DNA from: Pseudomonadota bacterium
Lineage (GTDB): Bacteria; Myxococcota_A; UBA9042; GCA-2863065
Assembly (NCBI GenBank): GCA_947498315.1
Contig: CANMLD010000010.1
Location: forward strand, 1 to 49,542
Reading direction: 5' to 3'
Length of the DNA stretch: 49,542 nt
Within the stretch, counting starts at the first letter, position 1; each line of letters opens with the position of its first letter. The notes under the pieces were generated by a model that worked only from the letters and a program-made list of their open reading frames with translations, was not told where the DNA came from and ran no database searches. Shown in pieces: positions 19,922 to 41,209 of the stretch. The position numbers and the translations under genes were made by a program.

Positions 19922-21043
19922 TCAGACCCGCATCGGCATGACGACGAAGAGGCTCCCCGCGTCTTCAGGGGACGTGAGGAGCCCTGGCGAGAACTGATCG
20001 GAGAGCGAGAGGTGCACGTTCTCGCCGCTGATGATGCCCAGTACGTCGAGCAGGTACTTGAAGTTGAAGCCGACGCTGATCTCGGCGGCTTCATTGTCAA
20101 CGACGAGCTCATCGCGCCCTTCGCCCATCTCCGGGTTCGAAGATGACAGCACGAGGCGCCCGGGAGAGAGCTCGAACCGAATGATGTTCGTCTTGGCCGA
20201 CGTGAGCGTCGCGATCCGGCGAATCGCCGCGACGAACAGGGCCTTCGCGATGGGCACGCGCACGGTGCTTCGCTGCGGAATGACCTTGGTGTAGTCCGGG
20301 AAGGTCTCGTCGAGCTGTCGGACCTGCAGGGTCACTTCGTCGTTCATGAAGTGCACGTTCCCTCGGTGGAACGCGACTTGGGTGTCCGGCTCGCTGCCTT
20401 CTAGGCTTCGCTTTAGCTCGTTCAGCGCCTTCGTGTGGATGACCGCCTCGGCGGCCGGCCCAAACTCGCCAGTGTCACCGCCGAGCGCCTCCGCTTTTGA
20501 GAGCCGGTGCCCATCGGTCGACACCATCGTGAGGCGAACCTCGTTCTCTTCACGAACCACGCGGAGGAAGACCCCGTTGAGACTGGGGCGCGTCTCATCG
20601 TGGCTGACGCTGAAGAGCGTACGGTCGACGAGGTCAGAGAGGAGGCGCTTCGGGATGCGGAAGTACTTGAGCCCCTCCGGTTGCGTACGTTCCGGAAAGT
20701 CGCCCGGCGGCAGTCCTGCGAGCTTGAAACGCGACGACCCACACCGGACCTCGACCCAGTGGTTGTCGAGAGCGGTCAGGTGCACCGGCTTGTCAGGAAG
20801 CGTCTTCACAACCTCGAAGAGGTGCTTGGCCCCAACGGTCATACGTCCGGCCACGGCGACTTCGGCGTTATAGTGGCCGGTGAGAACGACGTCGTAGTCG
20901 GTGGCGACGACGCGAATCCCCGTGCTCGACGTCGACTCGATCAGCACGTGCGAGAGGATGTTCTGCGCAGTCTTGCGGTCGACTACGCCTTGAGCCTTAT
21001 AGAGCGCTTGCGTGAGATCGAGCTTGCTGACGGTGAACTCCAC
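19922..21043 (-). CDS. dnaN: DNA polymerase III sliding clamp (beta subunit)
   Basis: Ring-shaped processivity factor for replication. The 373-residue protein starts with a GTG, reading MEFTVSKLDLTQALYKAQG. It has three clamp domains and ends in the conserved FVVMPMRV, where the MPMR segment lines the binding pocket. The GTG at 21043 is preceded by AGGAG at a good distance. The open frame runs 19 codons further upstream, but without a family match. It follows oriC and is the first gene of the long leftward set. Confidence 0.97.
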   Translation of the reverse strand: MEFTVSKLDLTQALYKAQGVVDRKTAQNILSHVLIESTSSTGIRVVATDYDVVLTGHYNAEVAVAGRMTVGAKHLFEVVKTLPDKPVHLTALDNHWVEVRCGSSRFKLAGLPPGDFPERTQPEGLKYFRIPKRLLSDLVDRTLFSVSHDETRPSLNGVFLRVVREENEVRLTMVSTDGHRLSKAEALGGDTGEFGPAAEAVIHTKALNELKRSLEGSEPDTQVAFHRGNVHFMNDEVTLQVRQLDETFPDYTKVIPQRSTVRVPIAKALFVAAIRRIATLTSAKTNIIRFELSPGRLVLSSSNPEMGEGRDELVVDNEAAEISVGFNFKYLLDVLGIISGENVHLSLSDQFSPGLLTSPEDAGSLFVVMPMRV

Positions 21044-21217
21044 GGCCGGGCTCCTGCTATGCCTGGTTGTGCACTCGAGGACGGGGTTGGTCCCCCGCAT
21101 CCCCGAGCTTCGAGCGCCTCCATTCCAAGAGGACTCGGGACGCTGCGGGCGTTGGCTGCTTCTAACGCAAAACTCCCTCTCCTGGAATCAAAGAACCAAA
21201 AGAGGGATAGATCGTCG

Positions 21218-21226
21218 TAGTAGTAG
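21218..21226 (+). promoter_or_regulatory. DnaA-trio element of oriC
   Basis: TAGTAGTAG is followed by GGCC-type sequence and then TGTGGAGAG. B. subtilis has the same order (TAG-like trios, GGGCC, TGTGGA box). The trio lets DnaA extend from the box onto one strand. Unwinding would then spread to lower coordinates, into the A-rich stretch at 21183-21206. Confidence 0.7.
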
Positions 21227-21230
21227 GGCC

Positions 21231-21248
21231 TGTGGAGAGCGTGGAAAG
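21231..21248 (-). promoter_or_regulatory. Two adjacent DnaA boxes next to the trio
   Basis: TGTGGAGAG (21231-21239) and CGTGGAAAG (21240-21248) read on the minus strand as CTCTCCACA and CTTTCCACG. Each matches 7 of 9 bases of TTWTNCACA. They sit head to tail directly beside the GC-rich link. Confidence 0.65.
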
Positions 21249-21316
21249 TCGGAAATTCGCCATGATTTCATGGTCATTAGAGGGGACCCACCTTGCGTCG
21301 ATTCTGAGGGTGGCGT

Positions 21317-21325
21317 TGTGGAGAA
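21317..21325 (-). promoter_or_regulatory. DnaA box, inverted orientation
   Basis: The minus strand reads TTCTCCACA, 8 of 9 to TTWTNCACA. It faces the six-box array that begins 25 bp to the right. Confidence 0.6.
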
Positions 21326-21349
21326 GCTGGGCACAACCCCCCTGCGCTT

Positions 21350-21416
21350 TCGTCCACAGTTTACCCACAGGCTCGTTCACATGATTTCTCACAGGGTTAT
21401 CCACGTTTTGTCCACA
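21350..21416 (+). promoter_or_regulatory. Array of six same-direction DnaA boxes spaced 11-12 bp
   Basis: Nine-base sites start at 21350 (TCGTCCACA), 21361 (TTACCCACA), 21373 (TCGTTCACA), 21385 (TTTCTCACA), 21397 (TTATCCACG) and 21408 (TTGTCCACA). Against TTWTNCACA they match 7, 8, 7, 8, 8 and 8 of 9 bases. Start-to-start distances are 11, 12, 12, 12 and 11, about one helical turn. Confidence 0.75.
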
Positions 21417-21571
21417 GCGGATTCATCGCAGACCTCGACGACGACGGTAGGTCACCGACCATGAGGTTGTCGCAGGCGACGGACGACTGATGAGTAGAGG
21501 TCGATCGAGAAGACCAACTGACGCTTGGCTTGCGAGGCTGAGCCAGGAGCGAGAAGCACCGTGTCGGGTGG

Positions 21572-22876
21572 CTAGATCCCCAGGGCGCGTTGAAGCTCGG
21601 TCACAGCGCGGTCCACCGAGGGATCGCGCTGATCCATGAGGTCTTGAATCTTGCGAACGGCCGAGATGACGGTGCTGTGGTCTCGGTTGCCGAAGCGATG
21701 GCCGATCTCAGGGTAGCTCGACGGTGTGTGGGTGCGAGCGAGGAACATCGCGATCATGCGCGGCAAGGCGATCGCACGGTGTCGGCGTTGTCCCTTGAGG
21801 TCAGCCGTGGTGACGTTGAAGTGTGCAGCGACGACCTTCTGGATCTGGCCGACGGTGATGGTGGGGCCCGCCGTCGAGATGAGATCTTTCAATACCGACT
21901 GCGCGAGCGCGATGTCGATCGTTTGGCGGTGAATGCGTGCGTGAGCGTGCAGCCGGACTAGAGACCCCTCGAGCTCACGTACGTTCGACTTGATGTTCTG
22001 GGCAAGGAACATGGCGACGTCGTCGTGGAGCGGGATCTGCTCGACCGATGCCTTCGTGCGAAGGATGGCGACTCGGGTCTCGAGCTCCGGTGGCTGAACG
22101 TCGGCGATGAGGCCCCACTGAAAGCGGCTTCGCAGGCGCTCTTCGAGGTAGGCGATCTCGCTCGGTGGGCGGTCGCTCGTGAGGATGATTTGGCGCTTGT
22201 CGGCGTGCAGGCTGTTGAACGTGTGGAAGAACTCGTCTTGGGTGCGGTCTTTGCCAGCGAGAAACTGGATGTCGTCTACCAGCAGAACGTCGCATCCACG
22301 GCGGTACTTGGCGCGGAACTCGTTCATGCGGTCAGCTCGGAGCGAGCTGATTAGGTCGTTCGTGAACTCCTCGCAGGTGTAGTACTGCACCATGGCGGAC
22401 GGGTTGGTCTTGCGAACTTGGTTGGCGACCGCGTGAAGAAGGTGGGTCTTGCCGAGGCCAACGCCGCCGTAGATGAAGAGCGGGTTGTAGTCGCGACCGG
22501 GGGTGTCGGCGACCGCCGCGGCGGCGGCATGCGCGAAGTGGTTCGAGGAGCCGACGACAAAGGTGTCAAAGGTGTAGCGCGGTTCGAACGAGTAGGTCTG
22601 CGCGGGTGGGCGGACCAGGGCGGACCGAGTTTCGATTCGCTCTCCGTCGAAAGTGAATTGGATGTCGAGCGGCGCCCCCTGTTGGGCGAGCTGGGCGCGG
22701 AGGAGCTCGAGGTAGTTGTCGCGTACCCAGTCGCGGAAGAACCGGTCAGGGACCTTCAACACGATCGCTTCTGTTGTCACCGCTTCGCAGACGATCGGCT
22801 TGAACCAGCTGTTGTACTGGTGTGCATCGAGCTGCTCGCGGATCGAGTAAAGCGCCTTGTCCCAAACTTCCAGCAT
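21572..22876 (-). CDS. dnaA: Chromosomal replication initiator DnaA
   Basis: Binds DnaA boxes and opens oriC. The 434-residue protein begins MLEVWDKALYSIREQLDAHQ, the domain I start. It has a short linker, then the AAA+ core with Walker A GGVGLGKT (137-144) and Walker B LLVDDIQF (198-205). The DNA-binding domain IV has the signature GNRDHSTVISAVRKI (396-410). The ATG at 22876 is preceded by GGAAGA. The frame stays open upstream, but that part does not resemble DnaA. It is transcribed towards oriC, so the right-moving fork meets it head-on. Confidence 0.97.
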   Translation of the reverse strand: MLEVWDKALYSIREQLDAHQYNSWFKPIVCEAVTTEAIVLKVPDRFFRDWVRDNYLELLRAQLAQQGAPLDIQFTFDGERIETRSALVRPPAQTYSFEPRYTFDTFVVGSSNHFAHAAAAAVADTPGRDYNPLFIYGGVGLGKTHLLHAVANQVRKTNPSAMVQYYTCEEFTNDLISSLRADRMNEFRAKYRRGCDVLLVDDIQFLAGKDRTQDEFFHTFNSLHADKRQIILTSDRPPSEIAYLEERLRSRFQWGLIADVQPPELETRVAILRTKASVEQIPLHDDVAMFLAQNIKSNVRELEGSLVRLHAHARIHRQTIDIALAQSVLKDLISTAGPTITVGQIQKVVAAHFNVTTADLKGQRRHRAIALPRMIAMFLARTHTPSSYPEIGHRFGNRDHSTVISAVRKIQDLMDQRDPSVDRAVTELQRALGI

Positions 22877-23148
22877 GCTCTTCCGATACACCTTGTCCGC
22901 AGACGCAACCCTATGCCCTGGGCGTGCGTAACGGGTCGACTCGTGGTACTGCTGATTCGCCGGCACGACGAACGCTGACCGCCTTGCGGCCTTGCCCCAC
23001 GAGGTGGGGTCGAGCCGACGGGTGTTCGTTGCTGACGCCCGATTGGTTAGCACCGGGCTCGGAGGTGGCGCAAGCGGGTTTTTGTCTTTTCTCCTATCTC
23101 GTGGCGATCATTGGCGAGCTGCGATCACTTACGTGTGAGGAGCCGACC

Positions 23149-24436: not shown

Positions 24437-26605
24437 GTGCAACGTTCCATCCTAGTCACTTTGATCGCAGCCGCCGTTGGTGGCGTGCTCTACCTCGTGT
24501 TCCGTGACAAAGGCGTCAAGCCCGAGGAGGCGAGCGCCATCGTGGCGGCCGTGAAGAAGGAGGTCGTTCCGGCCACGACCATCACCGCGGGTTCAGGAGA
24601 TACGGCGTTCCATGTCGTTATCTCTCACCGCGGTGCGGGGCTTCAGAACGTGCTCCTCGACAGCGCTCAGTACGCTCAGAAGGACCGTCTCCATACGCTC
24701 TCGGCGCGAGCGCAGCAGCTCGCGAAGTCAGGGCTCATCGACCCCACGAAGTTCGTTCCGGGTCCTTACGACCTGGTTGAGACGTGGAGCCCTGGGTACT
24801 ACCCCTTTCAGGTCCAGGTTCGAAAGCTCGAGTGGACCGATAAGGCCCGTACGATGGAGCGGCTCGTGCGTGCCGTTCGCGACATCGAAGTTGGCAAGGA
24901 GGGCGTCACCGTCGGGGCTGCGCAGGCGGGCGATCTCGTGATTCAAGCGGGCGACCGCCTCGTCATTGACGGTGCCGGGGAGTGGGCCATTGCGACCGCC
25001 ACCGACACCGCGGTGACGCTTGCGCCCGCCGCGCCGATTGCGGCTGGGGGACCTGGCGGTCCCGCAGTGGCCGCTGCGGCAGCGCCAGTTGGAAAGAACG
25101 TCGGGAAGATCGTCCGTCGCGGCACGCCAGCCGAGCAGTGGGCGAAAGACACGAACTTCACCGTAGTGGCGTCGTCTCCGAAAGACGTGACGCTGGTGTG
25201 GCCGAACCCGTCGCGCGACCGCAGCGATCTCTTCATCGAGCGGACTTGGGAAGCTCGCGACGGCTACCACGTCGAGCACGCCATCCGGGTGCGCAACCTC
25301 AGCGTTGACGCTCTTCAGGCTGAATATTCGGTCGTCCTGAACGGCTGGGTGGACCCTTGGGCGGAGGCGCCCGGGATGTTCACACCGCCGATCAAGCACT
25401 GGGCTCCCGCGTGCCACGTCGGCGGCACGAAGACGGAGGAGGCCTTCTCGTCGCTGCTGGGTGAAGAGACGCGCGAGGTCGCAGTCGAAGGCAAGGTCGA
25501 GTGGTTCGCCCTGAACTCGCAGTACTTCCTTCTCGCTGCAATCTTCGACGGCGAAGAAGGCATTGCCGGGTTGTGCCGCATGACGGCGGCTGAGAACGGC
25601 GTCATCGCCGCGGAGTTCACGCCGACCTCGATGAAGCCTCAGGAGGGCAGCGCCGCCGCGTGCGTGCCCGAGTGGCTGCCTGCCGAGCACCGAAACGGTC
25701 GGCTGACCTGCGCCGAGGCCATGAAGACACTCGGGGTAGACGACACGCACCTCGATCGCGCCAGCCTCGATCGCGCAGTTACTGCGTTCACGGGCGATCG
25801 CGACCAAGCGGCGAAGCTTCGCGCGATGGTGGAAGGTCACGCTCGCTTCACCCAGAACCCGGGCCTGGTGTTCACAGTGTTCGCCGGACCGAAGGAGCTC
25901 AAAGCTCTGGAGTCGACACGCGCATCACTCGTTGGCACGTTGGACTTCTGGTACGTCGGCTTTCTCGCGAAGCCAATGCTCTGGCTGCTGAAGGTCATCC
26001 ACGACGGCATCGGTAGTTGGTGGATCGCGATCTTCCTGCTCACGGTCATCGTGCGCGGCGTGATGTTCCCGCTCACGCACAAACAAGCGGTCCAGATGCA
26101 GAAGATGCAGGACCTCAAACCCGAGCTCGACGAGATCCAGAAGAAGCACGGGGCTGACAAACAGCGGCTTCAGCAGGAGATGCTGAACCTCTACAAGCGC
26201 GCTGGCGTGAACCCGCTGGGTGGCTGCTTCCCGATCCTCCTGCAGATGCCGGTCTACATCGCGCTTTACCGCTGCATCTACTCGGCCGTGGATCTCTACC
26301 AGGCGCCTCTCTTTGGCTGGGTCTATGACATGACGCAGCCCGACCCCTACTACATCCTACCCGTGCTGCTCGGCGTCTTCATGCTCCTGCAGCAGCGCTT
26401 CATGCCGGCCAGCCCGGGCGCCGACCCGCTACAGCAGAAGATCATCCAATACGTGATGCCCGCGATGTTCTCTGTCTTCATGCTGGTGTTGCCGGCGGGT
26501 TTGGTTTTCTACATCTTCGTCAGCACCGCGATCGGCGTTGGCCAAAGCTACTGGATCAAGAAGAAGTTTGGGGGCAAGCTCACGCCCTCGCGAGGAAAAG
26601 CCTGA
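24437..26605 (+). CDS. yidC: Membrane protein insertase YidC
   Basis: Inserts and folds inner-membrane proteins, alone or with Sec. The 722-residue protein is longer than usual (about 540-600). An N-terminal helix (residues 4-20) is followed by a large periplasmic domain. That domain contains an Ala/Gly/Pro-rich linker near residues 195-220. An extra helical stretch lies before the core (about 410-480). The conserved C-terminal core starts near 520 and has five helices, with the hydrophilic-groove arginine at about 540 (TVIVRGVMFPLT) and NPLGGCFPILLQMPVYIALY. The GTG at 24437 has GAGG upstream. The stop overlaps jag by one base (TGATG). Confidence 0.96.
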   Translation: MQRSILVTLIAAAVGGVLYLVFRDKGVKPEEASAIVAAVKKEVVPATTITAGSGDTAFHVVISHRGAGLQNVLLDSAQYAQKDRLHTLSARAQQLAKSGLIDPTKFVPGPYDLVETWSPGYYPFQVQVRKLEWTDKARTMERLVRAVRDIEVGKEGVTVGAAQAGDLVIQAGDRLVIDGAGEWAIATATDTAVTLAPAAPIAAGGPGGPAVAAAAAPVGKNVGKIVRRGTPAEQWAKDTNFTVVASSPKDVTLVWPNPSRDRSDLFIERTWEARDGYHVEHAIRVRNLSVDALQAEYSVVLNGWVDPWAEAPGMFTPPIKHWAPACHVGGTKTEEAFSSLLGEETREVAVEGKVEWFALNSQYFLLAAIFDGEEGIAGLCRMTAAENGVIAAEFTPTSMKPQEGSAAACVPEWLPAEHRNGRLTCAEAMKTLGVDDTHLDRASLDRAVTAFTGDRDQAAKLRAMVEGHARFTQNPGLVFTVFAGPKELKALESTRASLVGTLDFWYVGFLAKPMLWLLKVIHDGIGSWWIAIFLLTVIVRGVMFPLTHKQAVQMQKMQDLKPELDEIQKKHGADKQRLQQEMLNLYKRAGVNPLGGCFPILLQMPVYIALYRCIYSAVDLYQAPLFGWVYDMTQPDPYYILPVLLGVFMLLQQRFMPASPGADPLQQKIIQYVMPAMFSVFMLVLPAGLVFYIFVSTAIGVGQSYWIKKKFGGKLTPSRGKA

Positions 26606-27081
26606 TGGACATCGACGACGACTCTGTCTCCCGCCTAGACACGGCTCTGAACGTAGTGAAGCGCCTTCTCGACCTGTCGGGCTTCGACGCGACGCTCAAC
26701 GTCACCGAAGGCGACGAACGTATTGACGTCGTCCTTGGCGTCTCCGCCCCGGACGACATCGCCATCCTCGTTGGGGCGCAAGGGCAGACCTTGGCGGCGT
26801 ACCAGCTGCTCGCCAACCGCATCCTCCAGCGCATCGACGGCGAAGGGAAGCCGGTGAACCTCGACGTGGCTGGCGCAGGGGAAGCGCGGGAGCGCCGCCT
26901 TCAGCGACTCGCAGAGCGTTTCGCTGGCAGCGTGGCGGAGCATGGCCTCGAGGCCCGCATCTACGGCATGAACCCGAAGGACCGCCGCTCCATGCACGTG
27001 GCGCTTCAGTCGATGAACACGATTCAGACGTTTTCTGAAGACGAGGGGATCGCTCGGCGCCTCGTGATCACGCGGCGCTGA
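26605..27081 (+). CDS. jag: RNA-binding protein Jag/KhpB (KH and R3H domains)
   Basis: Single-stranded RNA-binding protein that in Gram-positives works with KhpA in cell division and mRNA control. The 158-residue protein has a KH domain (about 1-85, with DDIAILVGAQGQTLAAYQLL as its nucleic-acid loop) and an R3H domain (about 90-158). The R3H part has GMNPKDRRSMHVALQ and TFSEDEGIARRLVITRR. The N-terminal Jag_N domain found in many Firmicutes is absent, as usual in Proteobacteria. It starts on the yidC stop. Here mnmE does not follow. Confidence 0.94.
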   Translation: MDIDDDSVSRLDTALNVVKRLLDLSGFDATLNVTEGDERIDVVLGVSAPDDIAILVGAQGQTLAAYQLLANRILQRIDGEGKPVNLDVAGAGEARERRLQRLAERFAGSVAEHGLEARIYGMNPKDRRSMHVALQSMNTIQTFSEDEGIARRLVITRR

Positions 27082-28413: not shown

Positions 28414-28884
28414 TCAGTGGAGTACGCGCGGCTCTTGCGGCTCCGGCTCTGGGATCGAGACGGGCCAGAGGAGGGTGTCGAGGTCGAGGCCGTCCGCGCG
28501 GAAGCCTCGTGAGGGAAAGGCGAGCGAATTGCTCTGCCTTTCCGGGAGAAAGACGATCGGGGTCCCGAGGCGGTTGTAGCCGAGCTGTACCAGAGTCTGC
28601 TCGCGGATTGACCGGCCTCGCGGCAGTGTGAAGTCGTCGCTAGCGACGTAGAAGCCTTCGGGCAACAGCGGGATCAGCGCGTTCAAGAAGGCGTCGTCTT
28701 GGGCTGGATGCCCATCACTTCCAAAGGACCAGACGTTATCGGTGTTGGTCCCCGGCAGCATAACGACAGGGACGCCCTGTTCACTATGGTTATGAAAGAA
28801 AACCAGCGTCCCTTCAGGCACGAGATCTGGTGCCGCGGTGAGGGCCTGGCCTGTCCGGTAGAGGCCACAGGACCGGTCGCTCAC
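28414..28884 (-). CDS. Unknown protein coupled to hemE
   Basis: Not recognised. The 156-residue protein is predicted soluble, with GTLVFFHNHSEQGVPVVMLP near residues 25-45, then NTDNVWSFGSDG, FLNALIPLLPEGFYV and a Pro/Glu-rich C-terminus. The His-Asn-His-Ser segment could bind a metal, but this is speculation. The GTG at 28884 overlaps the hemE TGA as GTGA, so it is likely translated with hemE. The overlap makes it a plausible, though unproven, helper in haem synthesis or in handling its substrates. Confidence 0.7.
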   Translation of the reverse strand: MSDRSCGLYRTGQALTAAPDLVPEGTLVFFHNHSEQGVPVVMLPGTNTDNVWSFGSDGHPAQDDAFLNALIPLLPEGFYVASDDFTLPRGRSIREQTLVQLGYNRLGTPIVFLPERQSNSLAFPSRGFRADGLDLDTLLWPVSIPEPEPQEPRVLH

Positions 28885-32306: not shown

Positions 32307-33455
32307 CTAGTTGGGGAGGGGGCGTCGGCAGATGGCGACGGTTTCGATGTGGGGCGTCTGGGGGAAGGCGTCCACCGGTTGGATGGAAGTGACCTCGTAC
32401 TCGAGCGCGGTGAGCGCTTTGAGGTCGCGGAAGAGCGTCATTGGATCGCAGCTGACGTAGATGACGGTGTGGGCGCCCGTCGCTGCGATGGCGGCGATGC
32501 AGGGTAGGGCGCCGGCACGGGGCGGGTCTAGTAGCACGCAGTCGGCGGGCCCGAAGTGGAGTGGGTCGGTTGGAGATCGGTCTGCTTTCAAGAGGTTGGC
32601 TTGGAAGGCTCGAGCTTTCGGAGCCGCCTCCCGTAACCGTGAGACCGTCACGCGGTCTCCTTCGTACGCGTCGACGCGGTGCCCGCGCGCTAAGATCGGG
32701 ACAGTGAAGGTGCCGGCGCCAGCGAAGAGCTCTACGAGCCGGATCGATTCCGAAGGTAGGGCGGCGAGGACCAGCTCCACGAGCGCGGCTTCGGCGTCTG
32801 CGCTGGGTTGGGCGAATGGCGCGGCTTCTTCGCCGACGCGTACACGGCCGTCGGGGAAGACCATCGCATCCACATTTCCGCTGGCGCGATGACGCACGGC
32901 GTGTCGAACGGCGGGGAGCGCCGCTTCGAGGTCGGGGTGTAGGATCGGACATTGTTCGATCTCGAAGAGGCTATGTGTGCCGCGGGTTCGGTAGCCCACT
33001 TTTCCGTCGCGGTGGCCGAAGCGAGCACGGCGCCGGTATCCGAACGGCGGCAGGGGCGTCAGGATCGGATGTACCGTGACGCTTGGGAGGTGGCGCGCGG
33101 CCTCGCGCCGGATCAGGGCTTCTTTTTCGGCGTGTTGCCTGGGGTCGGAGAGATGTTGCCAGGGGCAACCTCCGCAGACTCCCGCTCTCGCGTGGGTGCA
33201 TGGGGGGTCACGCCGGTCCGGCGACGCTTCGATCACCTTCGTGACCACAGCCTTTACGTAGCTGCCGTGGTCGGAGACGACCCGGGCCTCGACGCGTTCG
33301 TTGGGGGCGGCTCCGGCGATGAAGGCGACTCGTCCGTCATCGAGTCGCGCGATGGCGTCGGGACCGTTGGACATGTGGGTCGTGGTCACCATGACGAGGC
33401 CGGGGTTCGTGGGGCTGGCTGCGGTGGCGTGAGTGGGGTGATCGTCGTTGCTCAA
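32307..33455 (-). CDS. Class I SAM-dependent RNA methyltransferase (TrmA/RlmD family)
   Basis: Probably makes 5-methyluridine in rRNA or tRNA. The 382-residue protein has an N-terminal TRAM-like region (about 22-75), then an Fe-S cluster set Cys86, Cys94, Cys97 (VCGGCPWQ) and Cys169 (EQCPILHP). The methyltransferase domain follows, with ELFAGAGTFTVPI (motif I), LLDPPRAGA, and YVSCDPMTL carrying the catalytic Cys. It is somewhat shorter than RlmD. A TTG at 33455 with GAGG upstream is the first start; an ATG at 33392 just before the TRAM part is the alternative. The gene lies next to the parS array, 28 bp from the first site. Confidence 0.9.
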   Translation of the reverse strand: MSNDDHPTHATAASPTNPGLVMVTTTHMSNGPDAIARLDDGRVAFIAGAAPNERVEARVVSDHGSYVKAVVTKVIEASPDRRDPPCTHARAGVCGGCPWQHLSDPRQHAEKEALIRREAARHLPSVTVHPILTPLPPFGYRRRARFGHRDGKVGYRTRGTHSLFEIEQCPILHPDLEAALPAVRHAVRHRASGNVDAMVFPDGRVRVGEEAAPFAQPSADAEAALVELVLAALPSESIRLVELFAGAGTFTVPILARGHRVDAYEGDRVTVSRLREAAPKARAFQANLLKADRSPTDPLHFGPADCVLLDPPRAGALPCIAAIAATGAHTVIYVSCDPMTLFRDLKALTALEYEVTSIQPVDAFPQTPHIETVAICRRPLPN

Positions 33456-33482: not shown

Positions 33483-33498
33483 TGTTTCACGTGAAACA
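33483..33498. promoter_or_regulatory. parS: parS site 1 (perfect)
   Basis: TGTTTCACGTGAAACA is the 16-base ParB consensus with no mismatch. Confidence 0.95.
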
Positions 33499-33530
33499 TC
33501 GCGCGGAGGTGGGGATGGCCTGTCCGCTGG

Positions 33531-33546
33531 CGTTTCACGTGAAACA
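33531..33546. promoter_or_regulatory. parS: parS site 2 (15 of 16)
   Basis: CGTTTCACGTGAAACA differs from the consensus only at the first base. It is 48 bp after site 1, in a duplicated unit. Confidence 0.9.
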
Positions 33547-33578
33547 TCGCGCGGAGGTGGGGGTGGCCTGTCCGCTGG

Positions 33579-33594
33579 CGTTTCACGTGAAACA
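33579..33594. promoter_or_regulatory. parS: parS site 3 (15 of 16)
   Basis: CGTTTCACGTGAAACA, 48 bp after site 2. Confidence 0.9.
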
Positions 33595-33745
33595 TCCGTC
33601 GCGGAGTCCGGAAAGTGTGTTTAATATCGGTTGGTTGAGCGGGCGCCGCCAGCCCAGCAGCCGAAAGGTCCCACCTCCAGCATCGGCCGTGCTTCGCCTC
33701 CGCCACCAAGATACCTCCAATCATCAGGACGACGATGGTCCCGAA

Positions 33746-33761
33746 GGTTTCACGTGAAACA
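33746..33761. promoter_or_regulatory. parS: parS site 4 (15 of 16)
   Basis: GGTTTCACGTGAAACA differs only at the first base. It lies 43 bp upstream of the dprA start at 33805. The stretch 33456-33804 holds these four sites and no clear gene. Confidence 0.88.
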
Positions 33762-33804
33762 TTCCGGGCTGGCGCCGGACGACGCGTATGGTATCAAGCC
33801 TCGG

Positions 33805-34932
33805 ATGAGCCAGCACCCAATCGAACCTCCAGCCACGCATTCGTTGCCAGTCGATCACGATACCGAGGTTCGGGCCCGTCTAGCCCTATATCTCGGGGCC
33901 GGTGGTGATGTCCGCATTCTTCGGAGAGCTGTCGCGAACTTCGGGTCCGGAATCGGCGCGCTGGCCGCAAGTGCGTTACCGGCTAGACTCAGGTCGGAGG
34001 CGTCGAGTGCGACCATGCCACGTCGTGTTGCTGCCGTGCTCGCGCGAACTGCAGAGGTTGGGGGTCGCTGGACGGTGCCGGGCTGTGCAGAGTTTCCGGC
34101 AGCGCTCATTCAGTCCGACGTGGCCTTACTTTGCGTCGCAGGTACGCTGCCTGAGGGGTCCATGGTCTCACTGGTTGGCTCGCGCGACGCAGAGGAGTAC
34201 GGGCTATGGTGCGCTCGCTCGCTCTCGGGAGCCATCGCGCGTGCCGGGGGAGTGGTCGTCTCCGGCGGCGCGATGGGGATAGACTCAGCATGTCACGACG
34301 GCGCTTTGGATTCTGGTGGGAGTACTGTGGTGGTCCTGGGTCAGGGCCTCGCGTCTGCGTTGGCGTCAGGGCAGGGGGATTGTTATCGACGCTGGGCCGG
34401 CAGCGGTTTGCTAGTCACCGAGTACCTGCCTGACGCACATGGCAGCAAGCAGTCCTTCCCCGAGCGAAACCGAATCGTCGCGTCACTCGGTGTTTGCACG
34501 GTGGTCGTGCAAGCGGCGGTGAAGAGCGGAACTCTCATCACCGCGCGGCTCGCGCGGGAGTTGGGCCGGCCCGTCTTTGCGATTCCGGGTGAGGTTGGTC
34601 TGTCGGCTTGCGCTGGGTCCAACGCGCTTCTCGCGTCTCAGGATGCTCGGGCCCTCCATGCGCCGTCTGCGCTCGCCACCGTTTCGGGTCTGGCGGGACT
34701 GGTTGGATCCGCGTTCCCTGTACGAGGGCAGCCTGATCGGACATCAGGGACGCGCGACGACGCCGTTTCGATGGGGTCGGTCCATCCGGCAGTTCGCTTC
34801 CTGCGGCACGCTGGACCACAGACGGTAGCGACTCTCGTTGCTCAGTTCGGAGAAGAGTGGGCAGGTCTCGCACTGCAGCTGGAGCTCGATGGTGCCATAC
34901 GGCGCGATGCTGAGGGACGCTACTTGGCCTGA
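33805..34932 (+). CDS. dprA: DNA-processing protein DprA
   Basis: Protects incoming single-stranded DNA during natural transformation and loads RecA. The 375-residue protein has the Rossmann-like core: VSLVGSRDAEEYGLWCARSL near 115-134, then GVVVSGGAMGIDSACHDGAL, FPERNRIVASLG, AAVKSGTLITARLARELGR and VFAIPGEVG. The C-terminal winged-helix region is present. The ATG at 33805 is preceded by little ribosome-site signal; the frame stays open upstream through a parS site. It is followed after 256 bp by the pil genes, consistent with DNA uptake. Confidence 0.94.
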   Translation: MSQHPIEPPATHSLPVDHDTEVRARLALYLGAGGDVRILRRAVANFGSGIGALAASALPARLRSEASSATMPRRVAAVLARTAEVGGRWTVPGCAEFPAALIQSDVALLCVAGTLPEGSMVSLVGSRDAEEYGLWCARSLSGAIARAGGVVVSGGAMGIDSACHDGALDSGGSTVVVLGQGLASALASGQGDCYRRWAGSGLLVTEYLPDAHGSKQSFPERNRIVASLGVCTVVVQAAVKSGTLITARLARELGRPVFAIPGEVGLSACAGSNALLASQDARALHAPSALATVSGLAGLVGSAFPVRGQPDRTSGTRDDAVSMGSVHPAVRFLRHAGPQTVATLVAQFGEEWAGLALQLELDGAIRRDAEGRYLA

Positions 34933-34949
34933 GCCCACCACATCAAACA

Positions 34950-34965
34950 TGTTTCACGTGAAACA
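34950..34965. promoter_or_regulatory. parS: parS site 5 (perfect)
   Basis: TGTTTCACGTGAAACA without mismatch, 17 bp after the dprA stop, in the dprA-pilB gap. Confidence 0.95.
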
Positions 34966-35188: not shown

Positions 35189-37003
35189 GTGAGCAAGGGA
35201 AACCCGTCCTCCAATCTGCCCGCCACGTTGGCCCGCGAAGCCGCTGGTGAGAACCTCCCAGCACGGGCGAGTGACGCGACCGGCTACGACGGGATCGGCG
35301 ACATGCTCGTCCGCGAGCGCATCATCTCTTTGGCGCAGCTCGAAGATGCCGCCGAAGAGGTTCAACGCACGGGTGAGTCGATCGGCTCCGCCCTCGCGCG
35401 CCTCGGCATGGTCGACCACAACAAGCTGGTCGACTTCTTGTCGCGTCACTTCGGGGTCCCTTCAATCGACCTCGAGCATTTGGAGATCAACCCGGACGTC
35501 ATAAGGCTCATCCCGAAGGAGGTGTGCGAACGCCACTCGCTCATCCCCATCGACGTTCAAGGTAGCTCGATCATCGTCGCTATGGCGGACCCGTCGAACA
35601 TCTACGCGATGGACGACATCAAGTTCCTCACGGGCTACAGCGTGGAAGCGCTCGTGTCGACGGACGTCGCCATCGCGGCTGCACTCGACCGCTACCACAA
35701 GCGAGAAGAGAACGCCGAGTACGGCGTCATGCTCGAAAACGTCATGAGCGGAATCGAGGATGTCGAGTTCGGCGACAGCGACAACGCCAGCAGCAAGGCC
35801 ATTGACGTCGGCGATCTCGAGAAGCAGGCCGAGCTCGCGCCGGTCGTCCGCTTGGTCAACCTTATCCTCGTCGACGCTATCAAGCGCCTAGCGTCCGACA
35901 TCCACGTCGAGCCCTATGAGAAGGAGTTCCGCGTCCGTTACCGCGTCGATGGCGTGCTCTACGAGATCATGAAGCCACCCATGAAGCTTCGAAACGCGAT
36001 CGTGTCGCGCCTCAAGATCATGGCGTCGCTCGACATCGCTGAGCGCCGCTTGCCGCAGGACGGCCGTATCAAGCTCGTGCTCGGCAAGTCAAAGGAGGTC
36101 GATTTCCGCGTGTCGGTCCTCCCCTGCCTCTTCGGCGAGAAGGTCGTCATGCGACTCCTCGACAAGGCGAACCTGCAGTTGGACATGACGAAGCTCGGCT
36201 TCGACCCCGCGCCCCTCAAGCTCTTCAAGGATGCCGTCCACTCGCCGTGGGGTATGGTGCTCGTGACGGGCCCGACGGGGTCGGGTAAGACCACGACCCT
36301 CTACTCCGCCATCTGGGAGCTCAACAAGAGTACGGAGAACATCTCCACGGCCGAGGACCCGGTCGAGTTCAACCTCGCCGGCATCAATCAGTGCCAGATG
36401 AACGACGCGGTCGGGCTGAACTTCTCGGCGGCCCTTCGTTCCTTCCTGCGACAAGACCCTGACATCATCATGGTTGGCGAGATCCGTGACTTCGAGACGG
36501 CCGAGATCGCGATCAAGGCGGCGCTTACCGGCCACCTCGTGCTCTCCACGCTCCACACGAACGACGCCCCTGCAACCGTGAGCCGTCTGCTCAACATGGG
36601 CATCGAGCCCTTCCTGGTCACCTCCTCCTTGAACCTCATCCTCGCGCAACGCTTGGTGCGAGCCATCTGTATTGCGTGCAAGGGAGAGGACGCGGACGCC
36701 ACCGACGAGATCCTTCGCTCAATCCAACTCACGGAGGAGCAACTGGCCAACGCGCAACGGCGAAAGGGCGCGGGCTGTGAAAAGTGCGGCGATACGGGCT
36801 TCAAGGGCCGCCGAGCCATTTACGAAATCATGCCCATGTACGACGAGCTCAAGGAAGCCGTTCTGCAGGGCTACTCCGCCATGGAGCTCAAGCGCGAGGC
36901 AATCCGCCTTGGCATGGTGAGCCTCCGAATGGCCGCGAACAAGAAGCTCGTGGAAGGCACCACCACGGTAAGCGAAGTCCTTCGCGTGACCCGAAACGAC
37001 TGA
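35189..37003 (+). CDS. pilB: Type IV pilus extension ATPase PilB
   Basis: Hexameric ATPase that drives pilus extension from the cytosol. The 604-residue protein has the T2SSE N-terminal domain (about 35-170), then the ATPase core with Walker A GPTGSGKT (361-368), Asp-box region TAEDPVEF, Walker B IIMVGEIRD (about 426-434) and the His box LSTLHTNDA. A zinc tetracysteine motif follows (Cys494, 497, 530, 533). The frame stays open further upstream, across parS site 5. The GTG at 35189, with GGAG just before it, is the likely start. It leads pilB-pilT-pilC-pilS, the gene order known from Myxococcus xanthus. Confidence 0.94.
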   Translation: MSKGNPSSNLPATLAREAAGENLPARASDATGYDGIGDMLVRERIISLAQLEDAAEEVQRTGESIGSALARLGMVDHNKLVDFLSRHFGVPSIDLEHLEINPDVIRLIPKEVCERHSLIPIDVQGSSIIVAMADPSNIYAMDDIKFLTGYSVEALVSTDVAIAAALDRYHKREENAEYGVMLENVMSGIEDVEFGDSDNASSKAIDVGDLEKQAELAPVVRLVNLILVDAIKRLASDIHVEPYEKEFRVRYRVDGVLYEIMKPPMKLRNAIVSRLKIMASLDIAERRLPQDGRIKLVLGKSKEVDFRVSVLPCLFGEKVVMRLLDKANLQLDMTKLGFDPAPLKLFKDAVHSPWGMVLVTGPTGSGKTTTLYSAIWELNKSTENISTAEDPVEFNLAGINQCQMNDAVGLNFSAALRSFLRQDPDIIMVGEIRDFETAEIAIKAALTGHLVLSTLHTNDAPATVSRLLNMGIEPFLVTSSLNLILAQRLVRAICIACKGEDADATDEILRSIQLTEEQLANAQRRKGAGCEKCGDTGFKGRRAIYEIMPMYDELKEAVLQGYSAMELKREAIRLGMVSLRMAANKKLVEGTTTVSEVLRVTRND

Positions 37004-37064: not shown

Positions 37065-38186
37065 ATGGATAGCCCGACGCCGGAAGTCATCGACATCCAC
37101 CGGCTACTTCAGACCATGGTCGAGAAGGGAGCATCCGACCTCCACCTCACCGTCGGTTCCCCTCCGTGCCTCCGCATCAACGGGAGCCTGTACCCGTTGA
37201 AGACAAGGCCACTCGAGGGTCCCGAGATCGAGACGCTCATCTACGGGCTCATGAACGAGCGCCAGAAGAAGACCTTCGAAGAGACCAACGAGGTCGACAT
37301 GAGCTTCCGCTGGAAGGGCGGAGCGCGCTTTCGGTCGAACTTCTTCCGACAGCAGGGTGCCGCAGCCGCAGCCCTTCGGCAGATCCCGACGGAAGTTCGG
37401 GCTCTTGCCGATCTTGGGCTCCCGAACTCGGCCAACGACCTCATCGACCGCGCGGGAGGGCTCGTCCTCGTGACGGGTCCCACTGGGTCGGGCAAGTCGA
37501 CGACGCTCGCCAGCTTCATCGACGGCTACAACGCGAAGAACCGTGGGCACATCATCACCATCGAGGATCCCATCGAGTTCGTTCACCAGCACAAGAAGTG
37601 CATCGTGAACCAACGTGAGATCGGCACTGACACAGAGTCTTTTACGACGGCCCTGAAGTACGTATTGCGCCAGGATCCCGACGCCGTCCTGATCGGTGAG
37701 GTTCGAGACCGACGCACGATGGAGGCGCTGCTCTCCATCGCCGAGACCGGTCACCTCGCTTTCGCGACTATGCACACGAACAACGCGGTGCAGACGATCC
37801 ACCGGATCTTGGACTTCTTCCCTGCGGAGCAGCAGGATATGGTCAGGACGCAGGTGTCATTCGTGCTCGAAGGTGTCATCAGTCAGCAGCTCATCCCCCG
37901 CGCCGATGGCCGCGGCCGCGCGCTCGCGTGCGAAGTGCTGATCCCGACTCCCGCCATCCGTAACCTCATCCGCGAGAACAAGACCCACCAGATCTACTCG
38001 CAGATGCAGGTTGGCCAGACTCGCCACGGCATGCAGACCATGAACCAGTGCCTTGTGAAGTTCGTCGCCGCCAAGACGATCACACGCGAAGATGCCACCC
38101 TTGCGTCCTACGACCCTGAAGAGCTGAACACCTTGCTCAACAACGCAGCGGCTCCTGGCTCGGTTGCGCCGCCAGTGCGGAGGTAG
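37065..38186 (+). CDS. pilT: Type IV pilus retraction ATPase PilT
   Basis: Hexameric ATPase that powers pilus retraction, twitching motility and DNA uptake. The 373-residue protein has ASDLHLTVGSPP at the start, Walker A GPTGSGKS (138-145), Asp box TIEDPIEFVH, Walker B VLIGEVRDRRT and His box FATMHTNN. The PilT hallmark AIRNLIRE is at 297-304. No zinc tetracysteine motif is seen, as expected. It starts 61 bp after pilB and ends 3 bp before pilC. Confidence 0.96.
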   Translation: MDSPTPEVIDIHRLLQTMVEKGASDLHLTVGSPPCLRINGSLYPLKTRPLEGPEIETLIYGLMNERQKKTFEETNEVDMSFRWKGGARFRSNFFRQQGAAAAALRQIPTEVRALADLGLPNSANDLIDRAGGLVLVTGPTGSGKSTTLASFIDGYNAKNRGHIITIEDPIEFVHQHKKCIVNQREIGTDTESFTTALKYVLRQDPDAVLIGEVRDRRTMEALLSIAETGHLAFATMHTNNAVQTIHRILDFFPAEQQDMVRTQVSFVLEGVISQQLIPRADGRGRALACEVLIPTPAIRNLIRENKTHQIYSQMQVGQTRHGMQTMNQCLVKFVAAKTITREDATLASYDPEELNTLLNNAAAPGSVAPPVRR

Positions 38187-38189
38187 ACG

Positions 38190-39404
38190 ATGGCGATGTA
38201 CGCTTGGGAGGGCACCACCAAAGACGGTGCCAGCAAGAAGGGGGTGATGGAGGCCGGCAACGAAGCCGAAGTCCAGGACCGCCTGAAGCAGCTCAACATC
38301 GCCCCAGGCAAGGTCGCGAAGAAACGCGGCGAGTTCAAGTTCAAGCTCCCTGGTCTCGGCGGCGGGGTCGACACGAAGACCCTGGTGATCTTCACTCGTC
38401 AGCTCGCCACGATGATCGACGCCGGCCTGCCGCTCGTGCAGTGCATGGACATCCTGCAGGGTTCGGAGCCGAACAAGAACTTCAAGGAGGTGCTCATCTC
38501 CGTGAAGAACACGATCGAGGGTGGCTCTACGTTCGCGGATTCGCTGAAGAAGCACCCCAAGGTCTTCGACGAGCTCTTCGTCAACCTCGTCGCCGCTGGC
38601 GAGATGGGCGGTATTCTCGACACGATCTTGAACCGCCTAGCCGCCTACGTCGAAAAGTCGATGAAGCTCATCGCCAAGGTGAAGGGCGCGATGAAGTACC
38701 CGGTGACGGTGCTGATCGTGTCCCTCATCATCACCTACGGCCTTCTGACGAAGGTCATCCCAACCTTCGGCGACATGTTCAAGTCGATGGGTAAGTCCGA
38801 GCTGCCGGCCATCACCGAGTTCATGATGGGCGTGTCGGCCAACGCCACGAAGTACATGCCGTACATCCTGTCCGGCGGGGCTGGGCTCATCTTCTTGTTC
38901 AAACAGGTCACGGCGAGACCGAAAGGGCGCCTCGCCTGGGACTCCTTCGTCCTAAAGAGTCCAGTCTTCGGCACGCTCGTGAAGAAGACCGCGGTCGCGA
39001 AGTTCACGAGAACTCTTGGGACCTTGGTGTCGTCCGGCGTGCCGATCCTCGATTCGCTCGACATCGTGGCCCGCACCGCCGGCAACAAGGTGGTCGAGAA
39101 CGCAGTCCTCTATGTCCGCGAGAAGATTTCAGAAGGCAAGTCTATCGCTGGCCCCATGCTCGAGACGGGCGTCTTTCCCAAGATGGTCGTGCAGATGATC
39201 GGCGTCGGCGAGTCGACAGGCGCGATGGACGTCATGCTCGCCAAGATCGCTGACTTCTACGACGACGAAGTGGACCAGGCTGTCGACGGGATCATGGCCC
39301 TCATCGAGCCGCTCATCATGGTCGTCCTCGGCGGCCTGATCGGTAGCGTCATGATCGCCATGTACATGCCGATCTTCCAGATGGGCGACGCCGTCAGCGG
39401 CTAA
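38190..39404 (+). CDS. pilC: Type IV pilus inner-membrane platform protein PilC
   Basis: Platform protein that links the pilus to PilB and PilT. The 404-residue protein has two T2SSF domains (about 65-190 and 270-395). The first begins VDTKTLVIFTRQLATMIDAG. The second has AVAKFTRTLGTLVSSGVPIL and GVGESTGAMDVML. Helices are at about 165-190, 215-235 and 370-395. The short N-terminal region with the phrase MYAWEGTTKDG is normal. It begins 3 bp after the pilT stop and precedes the kinase by 11 bp. Confidence 0.95.
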   Translation: MAMYAWEGTTKDGASKKGVMEAGNEAEVQDRLKQLNIAPGKVAKKRGEFKFKLPGLGGGVDTKTLVIFTRQLATMIDAGLPLVQCMDILQGSEPNKNFKEVLISVKNTIEGGSTFADSLKKHPKVFDELFVNLVAAGEMGGILDTILNRLAAYVEKSMKLIAKVKGAMKYPVTVLIVSLIITYGLLTKVIPTFGDMFKSMGKSELPAITEFMMGVSANATKYMPYILSGGAGLIFLFKQVTARPKGRLAWDSFVLKSPVFGTLVKKTAVAKFTRTLGTLVSSGVPILDSLDIVARTAGNKVVENAVLYVREKISEGKSIAGPMLETGVFPKMVVQMIGVGESTGAMDVMLAKIADFYDDEVDQAVDGIMALIEPLIMVVLGGLIGSVMIAMYMPIFQMGDAVSG

Positions 39405-39415
39405 GAGGCGGTCCG

Positions 39416-41209
39416 TTGCCATACCGTCGCGCTCCGTGGACGATGCTCGCCGCGCCGGCACCGTCCTCGAACATCCTTCGGCCCGGCGACCACGAGCTTT
39501 ATTCTCAGCTCAAGTGGCTCACCCTCTTCCGGGTCTCGCTGGTAACCGTGCTGCTCGTCGCGACCTTCGGGTTCGGCGTCAGCGAGACCGTTCCCACTGA
39601 CGACCGCGCCTATCAGCACGTCTACACGATCTGTCTGACCACCTACGTCGTCAGTCTCATCTATATGGCGCTGCTTCGATGGCTGCCGGTCGGCCTGCCT
39701 CGCCTCATTGTGGCGTATGTTCAGTTCGCCGGAGACGTCATAACCGCCGCCACGCTGGTGTTGCTGACCGGCGGCACCGCGAGTGCCTTCACGTTCTTCT
39801 TCGGCATCGTGATCATTGGCGCCGCCGGCGTCCTCCTCCGACCGGGCGCATTCGTCTTCGCGACGATGAGTGCCGTCTTCATCGTGTGCATTGGGCTCTG
39901 GGAGCTAGAGCTCCTGCCCGAGTGGGATGGGCTGCGCGAGTACCGCTTTTCCTTCAGCCCCGAGATCGACGTCCTCATTCGCCCGGACTCCCGAGAGCGT
40001 GTGTCTCGAGTCGTCTATGGTGTCTCTGTCAACACACTGGCCTTCTTCGGGGTTGGTTTCCTCGCCTCCTCGCTCTCCGAGAACGCCCGTAGAACCGCGA
40101 TCGCGGCGTCGGCGCAGGCGCGGACGCTGCTCGACCTGCAGGCGCTCCACGAACACATCGTCAGCTCGGTTCCAACGGCCATCTTGACCTGCGACCTGCG
40201 AGGGCGAATCACGCTCGCCAATCCGACGGCTCTGAGGATCCTCGGAGCGCAGCACGCATCAGTGGACCGGGGCGATCTCGCGCTCTTCGACGGTAAGGTC
40301 ATACAGGACGTCTTCCCCTGGCTTCGGTATCCTATCGAACGCCTCTCTGAAGGGCGGGACGTCATGCGAGACGAGTCGGTCCTCGTCACTAGCCGGCAGC
40401 GCACCTACCTTGGCTGGACGCTCTCGCCGCTGCGCGACTCCAACCGCGCGCGCATCGGATACACCTTTCTATTTCAGGACATTACGCGGGTGAGAGAGCT
40501 GGAGCACACGATGAGGCGAAGCGAAAAGATGGCTGCGCTTGGCGAGCTGTCGGCCGCCATCGCTCACGAGGTTCGCAATCCGCTCGCAGCCATCTCGGGT
40601 TCGGTTCAGATGCTCGAATCGAGCCAATCTGCATCCGACAAGGACCGCCGTCTCATGCGCATCGTTCTGCGTGAGACAGAGCACCTGAACCGTTGGATCA
40701 CAGACTTCTTGAGCTATGCCCGCCCAGTCGCCGTCGAGCTGCGGCCAATCGAAATCGTGGCCCTGGTCGCAGACATCGTCGAGAGCGCGCGCGCCGATCC
40801 AAGCCTCGCCGGCGCCCACATTGCCTTCGAGCGCGTTGATCCGGTCTACATCCGAGCCGACGGCACCCACGTCCGTCAAGTGCTCTGGAACCTCGTCATC
40901 AACGCTCAGCAGGCGATCGTCCGAAAGGGGCATGGCCAGGTGACGTTGTCAGTCCACCCGAACATCGCCACGACGCGGCCTGAGGTCACTCTTCGCGTCG
41001 AAGACGAAGGTGACGGCATCGCGCCAGAGCACCTCGACCGCATCTTTCAGCCCTTCTTTACGACGAGGGATCGTGGGACGGGCCTCGGCCTCGCAGTCGT
41101 CCACCGGATCGTCGAGGAGAACGACGGGCGCATCTCGGTCGACAGTGAGGTCGGGAGGGGGACCGCCTTCTCGATAGTGTTCCCGCTGGCGCTGGAGCCC
41201 GCGGCATGA
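39416..41209 (+). CDS. pilS: PilS-like sensor histidine kinase
   Basis: Membrane kinase that would control pilin expression. The 597-residue protein has about six N-terminal helices (residues 33-222), then a PAS domain (about 245-355) and HisKA with His384 in IAHEVRNPLAA. The ATPase domain has LVINAQQA (N box), DEGDGIAP (G1) and GTGLGLAVVHRI (G2). A TTG at 39416 with GAGG 7 bases upstream is used here; an ATG at 39443 is the alternative. In Myxococcus pilR follows; here a small lipoprotein-like reading frame overlaps the stop (ATGA) and no response regulator is visible. Confidence 0.9.
   Translation: MPYRRAPWTMLAAPAPSSNILRPGDHELYSQLKWLTLFRVSLVTVLLVATFGFGVSETVPTDDRAYQHVYTICLTTYVVSLIYMALLRWLPVGLPRLIVAYVQFAGDVITAATLVLLTGGTASAFTFFFGIVIIGAAGVLLRPGAFVFATMSAVFIVCIGLWELELLPEWDGLREYRFSFSPEIDVLIRPDSRERVSRVVYGVSVNTLAFFGVGFLASSLSENARRTAIAASAQARTLLDLQALHEHIVSSVPTAILTCDLRGRITLANPTALRILGAQHASVDRGDLALFDGKVIQDVFPWLRYPIERLSEGRDVMRDESVLVTSRQRTYLGWTLSPLRDSNRARIGYTFLFQDITRVRELEHTMRRSEKMAALGELSAAIAHEVRNPLAAISGSVQMLESSQSASDKDRRLMRIVLRETEHLNRWITDFLSYARPVAVELRPIEIVALVADIVESARADPSLAGAHIAFERVDPVYIRADGTHVRQVLWNLVINAQQAIVRKGHGQVTLSVHPNIATTRPEVTLRVEDEGDGIAPEHLDRIFQPFFTTRDRGTGLGLAVVHRIVEENDGRISVDSEVGRGTAFSIVFPLALEPAA

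Follow-up and report, generated by a model that had tools for sequence, protein, structure and literature searches.

Five parS sites near the predicted origin and a parAB pair on a separate contig in a draft genome of an uncultured bacterial class

Five parS sites lie close to the predicted replication origin of a draft genome (G000), and the only strong parA and parB genes of that genome are located on a different contig. The five sites are very probably the centromere of a canonical, working ParABS system, with the sites kept by the origin and parAB placed elsewhere. The stretch of DNA analysed, referred to as the window, has a length of 49,542 bp and is the complete contig C10 of this genome (5.02 Mb in 328 contigs, 91% complete, 2% contamination).

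Results

parS sites in the window

A pattern search allowing up to three mismatches found exactly five parS sites in the window and none beyond these. Two matched the 16-mer at all 16 positions and three at 15, and together they extended from 33483 to 34965; the initial annotation had named the same five sites within 1.5 kb. No strand was assigned to them. parS-1 (33483..33498, TGTTTCACGTGAAACA, no mismatch) opens a trio that continues with parS-2 (33531..33546) and parS-3 (33579..33594), both with the sequence CGTTTCACGTGAAACA and one mismatch. parS-4 (33746..33761, GGTTTCACGTGAAACA, one mismatch) is located about 43 bp 5' of the likely dprA start, and parS-5 (34950..34965, TGTTTCACGTGAAACA, no mismatch) between the dprA stop codon and the likely pilB start. 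In the three imperfect copies the mismatch always falls on base 1 of the 16-mer. The 14-base core GTTTCACGTGAAAC was exact in all five sites and absent from the remainder of the 5.02-Mb genome, where a genome-wide pattern search detected copies of the core with one mismatch at C13:9719 and C306:3279 only. All five sites fit the palindrome of chromosomal ParABS systems, TGTTNCACGTGNAACA.

Shuffling of the window yielded a mean of 0.10 sites, and five were never attained. With a dinucleotide model the number of exact cores expected by chance was 0.009 for the genome and 9e-5 for the window. The window contained 10 half-parS heptamers (GTTTCAC/GTGAAAC), every one inside the five palindromes. The cores of the first three sites start at 33484, 33532 and 33580, in steps of 48 bp, and two full units of a tandem repeat (33484..33579, plus strand) were 98% identical, each opening with a parS core and followed in register by parS-3. 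The 48-bp tandem arrangement noticed earlier was thereby borne out, and the spacing is most simply explained by duplication in tandem at this locus, which would have provided additional loading sites. A single-strand folding signal of the cluster (z = -3.7) was set aside because it reflects the palindromes.

All five sites are intergenic, given the likely start codons of dprA (ATG 33805) and pilB (GTG 35189). Four are found in the gap between a gene for an rlmD-like 23S rRNA uracil methyltransferase (32307..33455, minus strand) and the divergent dprA (DNA_processg_A; 33805..34932, plus strand; the inferred ATG is in frame with a longer open reading frame from 33631). The fifth is between dprA and a gene for a pilB-like ATPase (T2SSE and MshEN domains; 35189..37003, plus strand, with the GTG start inferred). 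The sites are therefore located around dprA, as had been noted, four upstream of it and one between dprA and pilB. The next gene encodes a pilT-like ATPase (37065-38186) and is followed by a conserved third gene (38190-39404), which is pilC by position alone, and by a gene for a PilS-like kinase (39416-41209).

The predicted oriC was assigned to the intergenic region between dnaN (19922-21100) and dnaA (21572..23053), both on the minus strand. This region (21101..21571, no strand assigned) contains DnaA-box-like 9-mers clustered at 21317-21416; beside this cluster, in the same gap, are the 100-bp windows with the highest AT content in C10. A strict DnaA-box pattern (TTWTNCACM) gave zero matches in the oriC search, and oriC was placed by boxes with one mismatch. 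Also present in the window are rnpA, yidD, yidC, jag (R3H/KH; 26605-27081) and, in the place of recF, a gene for a RecF/SMC-N protein; no mnmE was found among the window genes scanned. The distance from the parS cluster to the DnaA-box cluster was 12.07-13.65 kb, which places the parS sites near oriC and agrees with the earlier estimate of about 12-14 kb.

parAB locus of the genome

Comparison of ParA and ParB with the window by tblastn gave no significant match, in line with the initial annotation, in which both genes were reported missing. The search of the whole genome that had been proposed there located parAB on contig C13 and exact cores on C10 only. parA (C13:9795-10607; AAA_31, 228 bits) and parB (C13:10607-11485; PF02195, ParB_N, and PF17762, HTH_ParB) adjoin as one canonical pair, with the CTPase domain, the HTH and the neighbouring ParA of a ParABS system, and are the sole strong ParA and ParB genes of the genome. 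ParB possesses the CTP-binding GERR box and the motifs KxRST and GHARA, as in Thermus Spo0J. The R of KxRST and the G of GHARA are taken by us to be determinants of parS rather than Noc specificity. Nucleoid occlusion sites (Noc/NBS) were considered and rejected, as the sites are of the parS type and ParB carries KxRST and GHARA; what we assume to be the Noc site, ATTTCCCGGGAAAT, and the Noc-type HTH residues served for comparison.

The window spans the whole of C10, and parA is placed 9.8 kb into C13. A distance of at least 24 kb therefore separates parAB from the cluster, and one of at least 31 kb separates it from oriC; in this 328-contig draft both values are lower bounds only. A parAB pair just outside the window is thus not present. 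No overlap was found between the ends of C10 and C13. The tetranucleotide compositions of the two contigs correlated with r = 0.985, supporting the assignment of both to one genome on compositional grounds. GC skew was uninformative for placing C13 and appeared to track gene orientation. The neighbours of parAB on C13 (RNase J, PrmC, HMA-thioredoxin, DHDPS and SpoU methylase) do not belong to the genes usually found at an origin.

The parA promoter of G000 contains a parS site with one mismatch, GTTGCACGTGAAAC, followed by two GTGAAAC half-sites. Three GTGAAAC units thus occur at C13:9719-9754 in steps of 11 bp, an arrangement found in none of the parA promoters of the relatives examined. C10 and C13 together (91 kb) contain a single perfect DnaA box (TTATCCACA), at C13:9582, 213 bp 5' of parA; it may link DnaA to parAB expression or may be due to chance. 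Recruitment of SMC-ScpAB by ParB bound to parS is common but not universal. A search for ScpA (PF02616) in this genome, which is 91% complete, gave no match, and SMC loading at the five sites is therefore unsupported; condensin may be absent, divergent or encoded in the missing 9%.

ParB and parS in the class

The comparison set comprised 52 genomes of the class, and a ParB was considered strong at an HTH_ParB score above 95 bits. Such a ParB was present in 21 of the 52 genomes. Exact parS sites occurred in 16 of these 21 and in 0 of the 31 genomes without ParB (Fisher p = 2e-9, uncorrected for shared ancestry). Nearly all members of family f5 belong to the 31 genomes that lack a strong chromosomal ParB, which suggests repeated loss of ParABS in the class.

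In 15 of the 16 genomes with exact parS a site was located in or just upstream of parA, at its promoter or start (12 genomes were read directly, the remainder by position upstream of parB). G000 was the only exact-parS genome without an exact copy at parA, and its intact copies are near oriC. Since most parS-bearing relatives have parS at parA, the split between parS and parAB is real for the G000 lineage. The site in the parA promoter is degenerate in G000 and also in G001, a member of the same family. In a ParB tree G000 grouped with its two family members (support 100/99); judged from these sequences, ParB appears to be vertically inherited and parAB not recently imported. A scan of named genomes for ParB gave distant matches only.

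Sites of the Myxococcus xanthus type (GTTCCACGTGGAAC) were observed in some relatives, namely at L238:611-732 (contig C112 of G037), at L235:1068 and 1133 (outgroup G052) and at L239:9521 and L240:9216 (G001). The three sites in G037 are spaced by 53-55 bp on a contig without parAB. The occurrence of this type in G052 may point to an affiliation with Myxococcota.

Genomic context in relatives

The initial annotation had taken the vicinity of jag and mnmE as the usual place of parAB, which did not hold for this class. In G019 dnaA and parB share a contig at a distance of 111 kb, and the single parS is at parA. parAB adjoins dnaN in G017, with the order recF-dnaN-parB-parA-parS, and contexts differ elsewhere. 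Four parS sites, parA, parB, topA and dprA are grouped in G010, and one contig of G021 carries parABS, an ABC-transporter operon, pil genes, a GidA-family gene, topA and dprA. Because parABS occurs with topA and dprA on single contigs of G010 and G021, in the latter together with pil genes, a location of parS near dprA and pil has precedent.

Sites matching 15 of 16 positions were also found apart from parAB. One in G003 directly follows the ABC operon whose counterpart in G021 adjoins parB, and parAB of G003 is on another contig. One in G002 lies between yidC and the ortholog of the window gene at 28414-28884, besides an exact parS at parA. Both are on origin-linked contigs, one site each with one mismatch. 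They are weak evidence, because scrambled patterns gave about 0.4 one-mismatch matches per genome. Remnants of parA or parB were found neither at the G000 cluster nor at these sites of G002 and G003.

The parAB neighbours of G000, G001 and G002, which belong to one family, have no gene in common. As far as gene order can tell, this fits a parAB locus that changed place while parS persisted near the origin. Gene order in the origin region is generally scrambled across the class, and for the window genes the rearrangement relative to G001, G002 and G003 was too extensive for an ancestral order to be reconstructed. A tRNA-Pro gene is located shortly 5' of parA in G003 (contig C6, L123:9206-9279), possibly an insertion site for a relocated parAB.

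Discussion

ParB acts in trans, and parS apart from parAB is therefore not anomalous in itself. From the known biology of such systems, ParB expressed from the distant C13 locus would bind the five sites in trans, load there as CTP-dependent clamps and slide into the flanking DNA, and nucleoid-bound ParA-ATP would move the ParB-parS complex and hence the new origin. The parA-promoter site, with its one mismatch and two phased half-sites, would probably serve autoregulation if it has any role. In the G000 lineage parS would have lost the link to parA that the relatives show, with parAB elsewhere and parS maintained by the origin. The arrangement departs only modestly from a well-known and otherwise standard system.

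Clustered parS sites near oriC, one of them sufficing, are standard (PMC7022226, PMC7333895, PMC4368675). In M. xanthus a 3-kb cluster holds 22 parS sites and lies about 4 kb upstream of parA, with parAB itself about 35 kb from oriC (PMC3899335). A tight multi-copy cluster close to oriC and a canonical ParB are common to both genomes, as is a distance of tens of kb between parAB and oriC, which in G000 is a lower bound. The 22 sites, however, are of the type TGTTCCACGTGGAACG, whereas the five in G000 are of the type GTTTCACGTGAAAC. The 31-kb minimum between oriC and parAB is comparable to the M. xanthus value; what differs is the separation of cluster and parAB by at least 24 kb. A similar cluster is known from Caulobacter crescentus, where at least five parS sites are confined to a few kb at a distance of about 8 kb from the origin (PMC5815017), whereas in G000 the par genes are on another contig and three sites show the 48-bp tandem spacing. 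In Pseudomonas aeruginosa parS is required near oriC (PMC5098823), and parS1-4 are located within 20 kb of it, one being enough and some lying in promoters (PMC4368675, PMC5098823). G000 shares the cluster near oriC and the promoter-located sites but differs in the flanking genes. The ParABS systems within the class (G010, G017, G021, G019 and family f6) agree with G000 in parS sequence and have ParA and ParB proteins orthologous to those of G000, but their parS is located at the parA promoter, and G000 alone has all its exact copies by dprA.

Two histories are compatible with a centromere by the origin and differ in whether parAB was relocated. On balance we lean towards parAB lying within the origin domain, tens of kb away and merely on another contig, with parS spread over the origin region and no relocation. 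The lower bounds amount to only 24 kb (cluster) and 31 kb (oriC); for comparison, M. xanthus has its parAB about 35 kb from oriC (PMC3899335), and in G019 the pair is 111 kb from dnaA. The neighbours of parAB on C13 are atypical of an origin, and the ends of C10 and C13 do not overlap, but a moderate distance is still compatible with both. That parAB was in fact relocated beyond the origin domain in the G000 family and left the centromere behind is possible, though rather doubtful. It would account for the wholly different parAB contexts within one family, for the parAB-free one-mismatch sites on origin-linked contigs of G002 and G003, and for the decay in G000 and G001 of a parA-promoter site that is exact in 15 of the 16 parS-bearing genomes. 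However, the genomes are drafts, gene order near the origin is scrambled class-wide, and the absence of a parAB remnant at the cluster leaves "left behind" unproven against "gained later". Of the initial claim that the centromere has been separated from its genes, the distance between intact parS on C10 and parAB on C13 stands; a departure of parAB from the origin domain is unproven, the bound of at least 31 kb resembling the approximately 35 kb of M. xanthus.

The intergenic position of all five sites, four of them in a divergent promoter region, recalls P. aeruginosa, in which ParB represses promoters beside parS3 and parS4 (PMC7022226). It is nevertheless very unlikely that regulation of the rlmD-dprA-pilB promoters is their main role, as the five are the sole exact parS of the genome and must also be its main centromere, and as exact sites track parA and not dprA in the relatives; promoter regulation is possible as a side effect. 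The least probable explanation is a binning artefact, with C13 parAB from another organism, a host that lost ParB, and relic sites. Such an error is conceivable in a draft of 328 contigs with 2% contamination, but it is opposed by the compositional similarity of C10 and C13, by the grouping of ParB with the two family members, and by the fact that genomes without ParB kept no exact parS.

The centromere by the origin with parAB elsewhere extends ParABS to an uncultured class. It suggests that the position of parS near oriC is kept even when parAB is elsewhere, in agreement with parS-moving experiments in P. aeruginosa and Caulobacter. With parS at parA, parS apart from parAB, and ParB and parS both absent, the class provides a natural series for centromere drift. 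It is unlikely, in our estimate, that parAB of the G000 family lies wholly outside the origin domain with the centromere still at the origin; if true, this would represent natural chromosomes with partition genes far from the centromere, against the rule that both are located in the origin domain.
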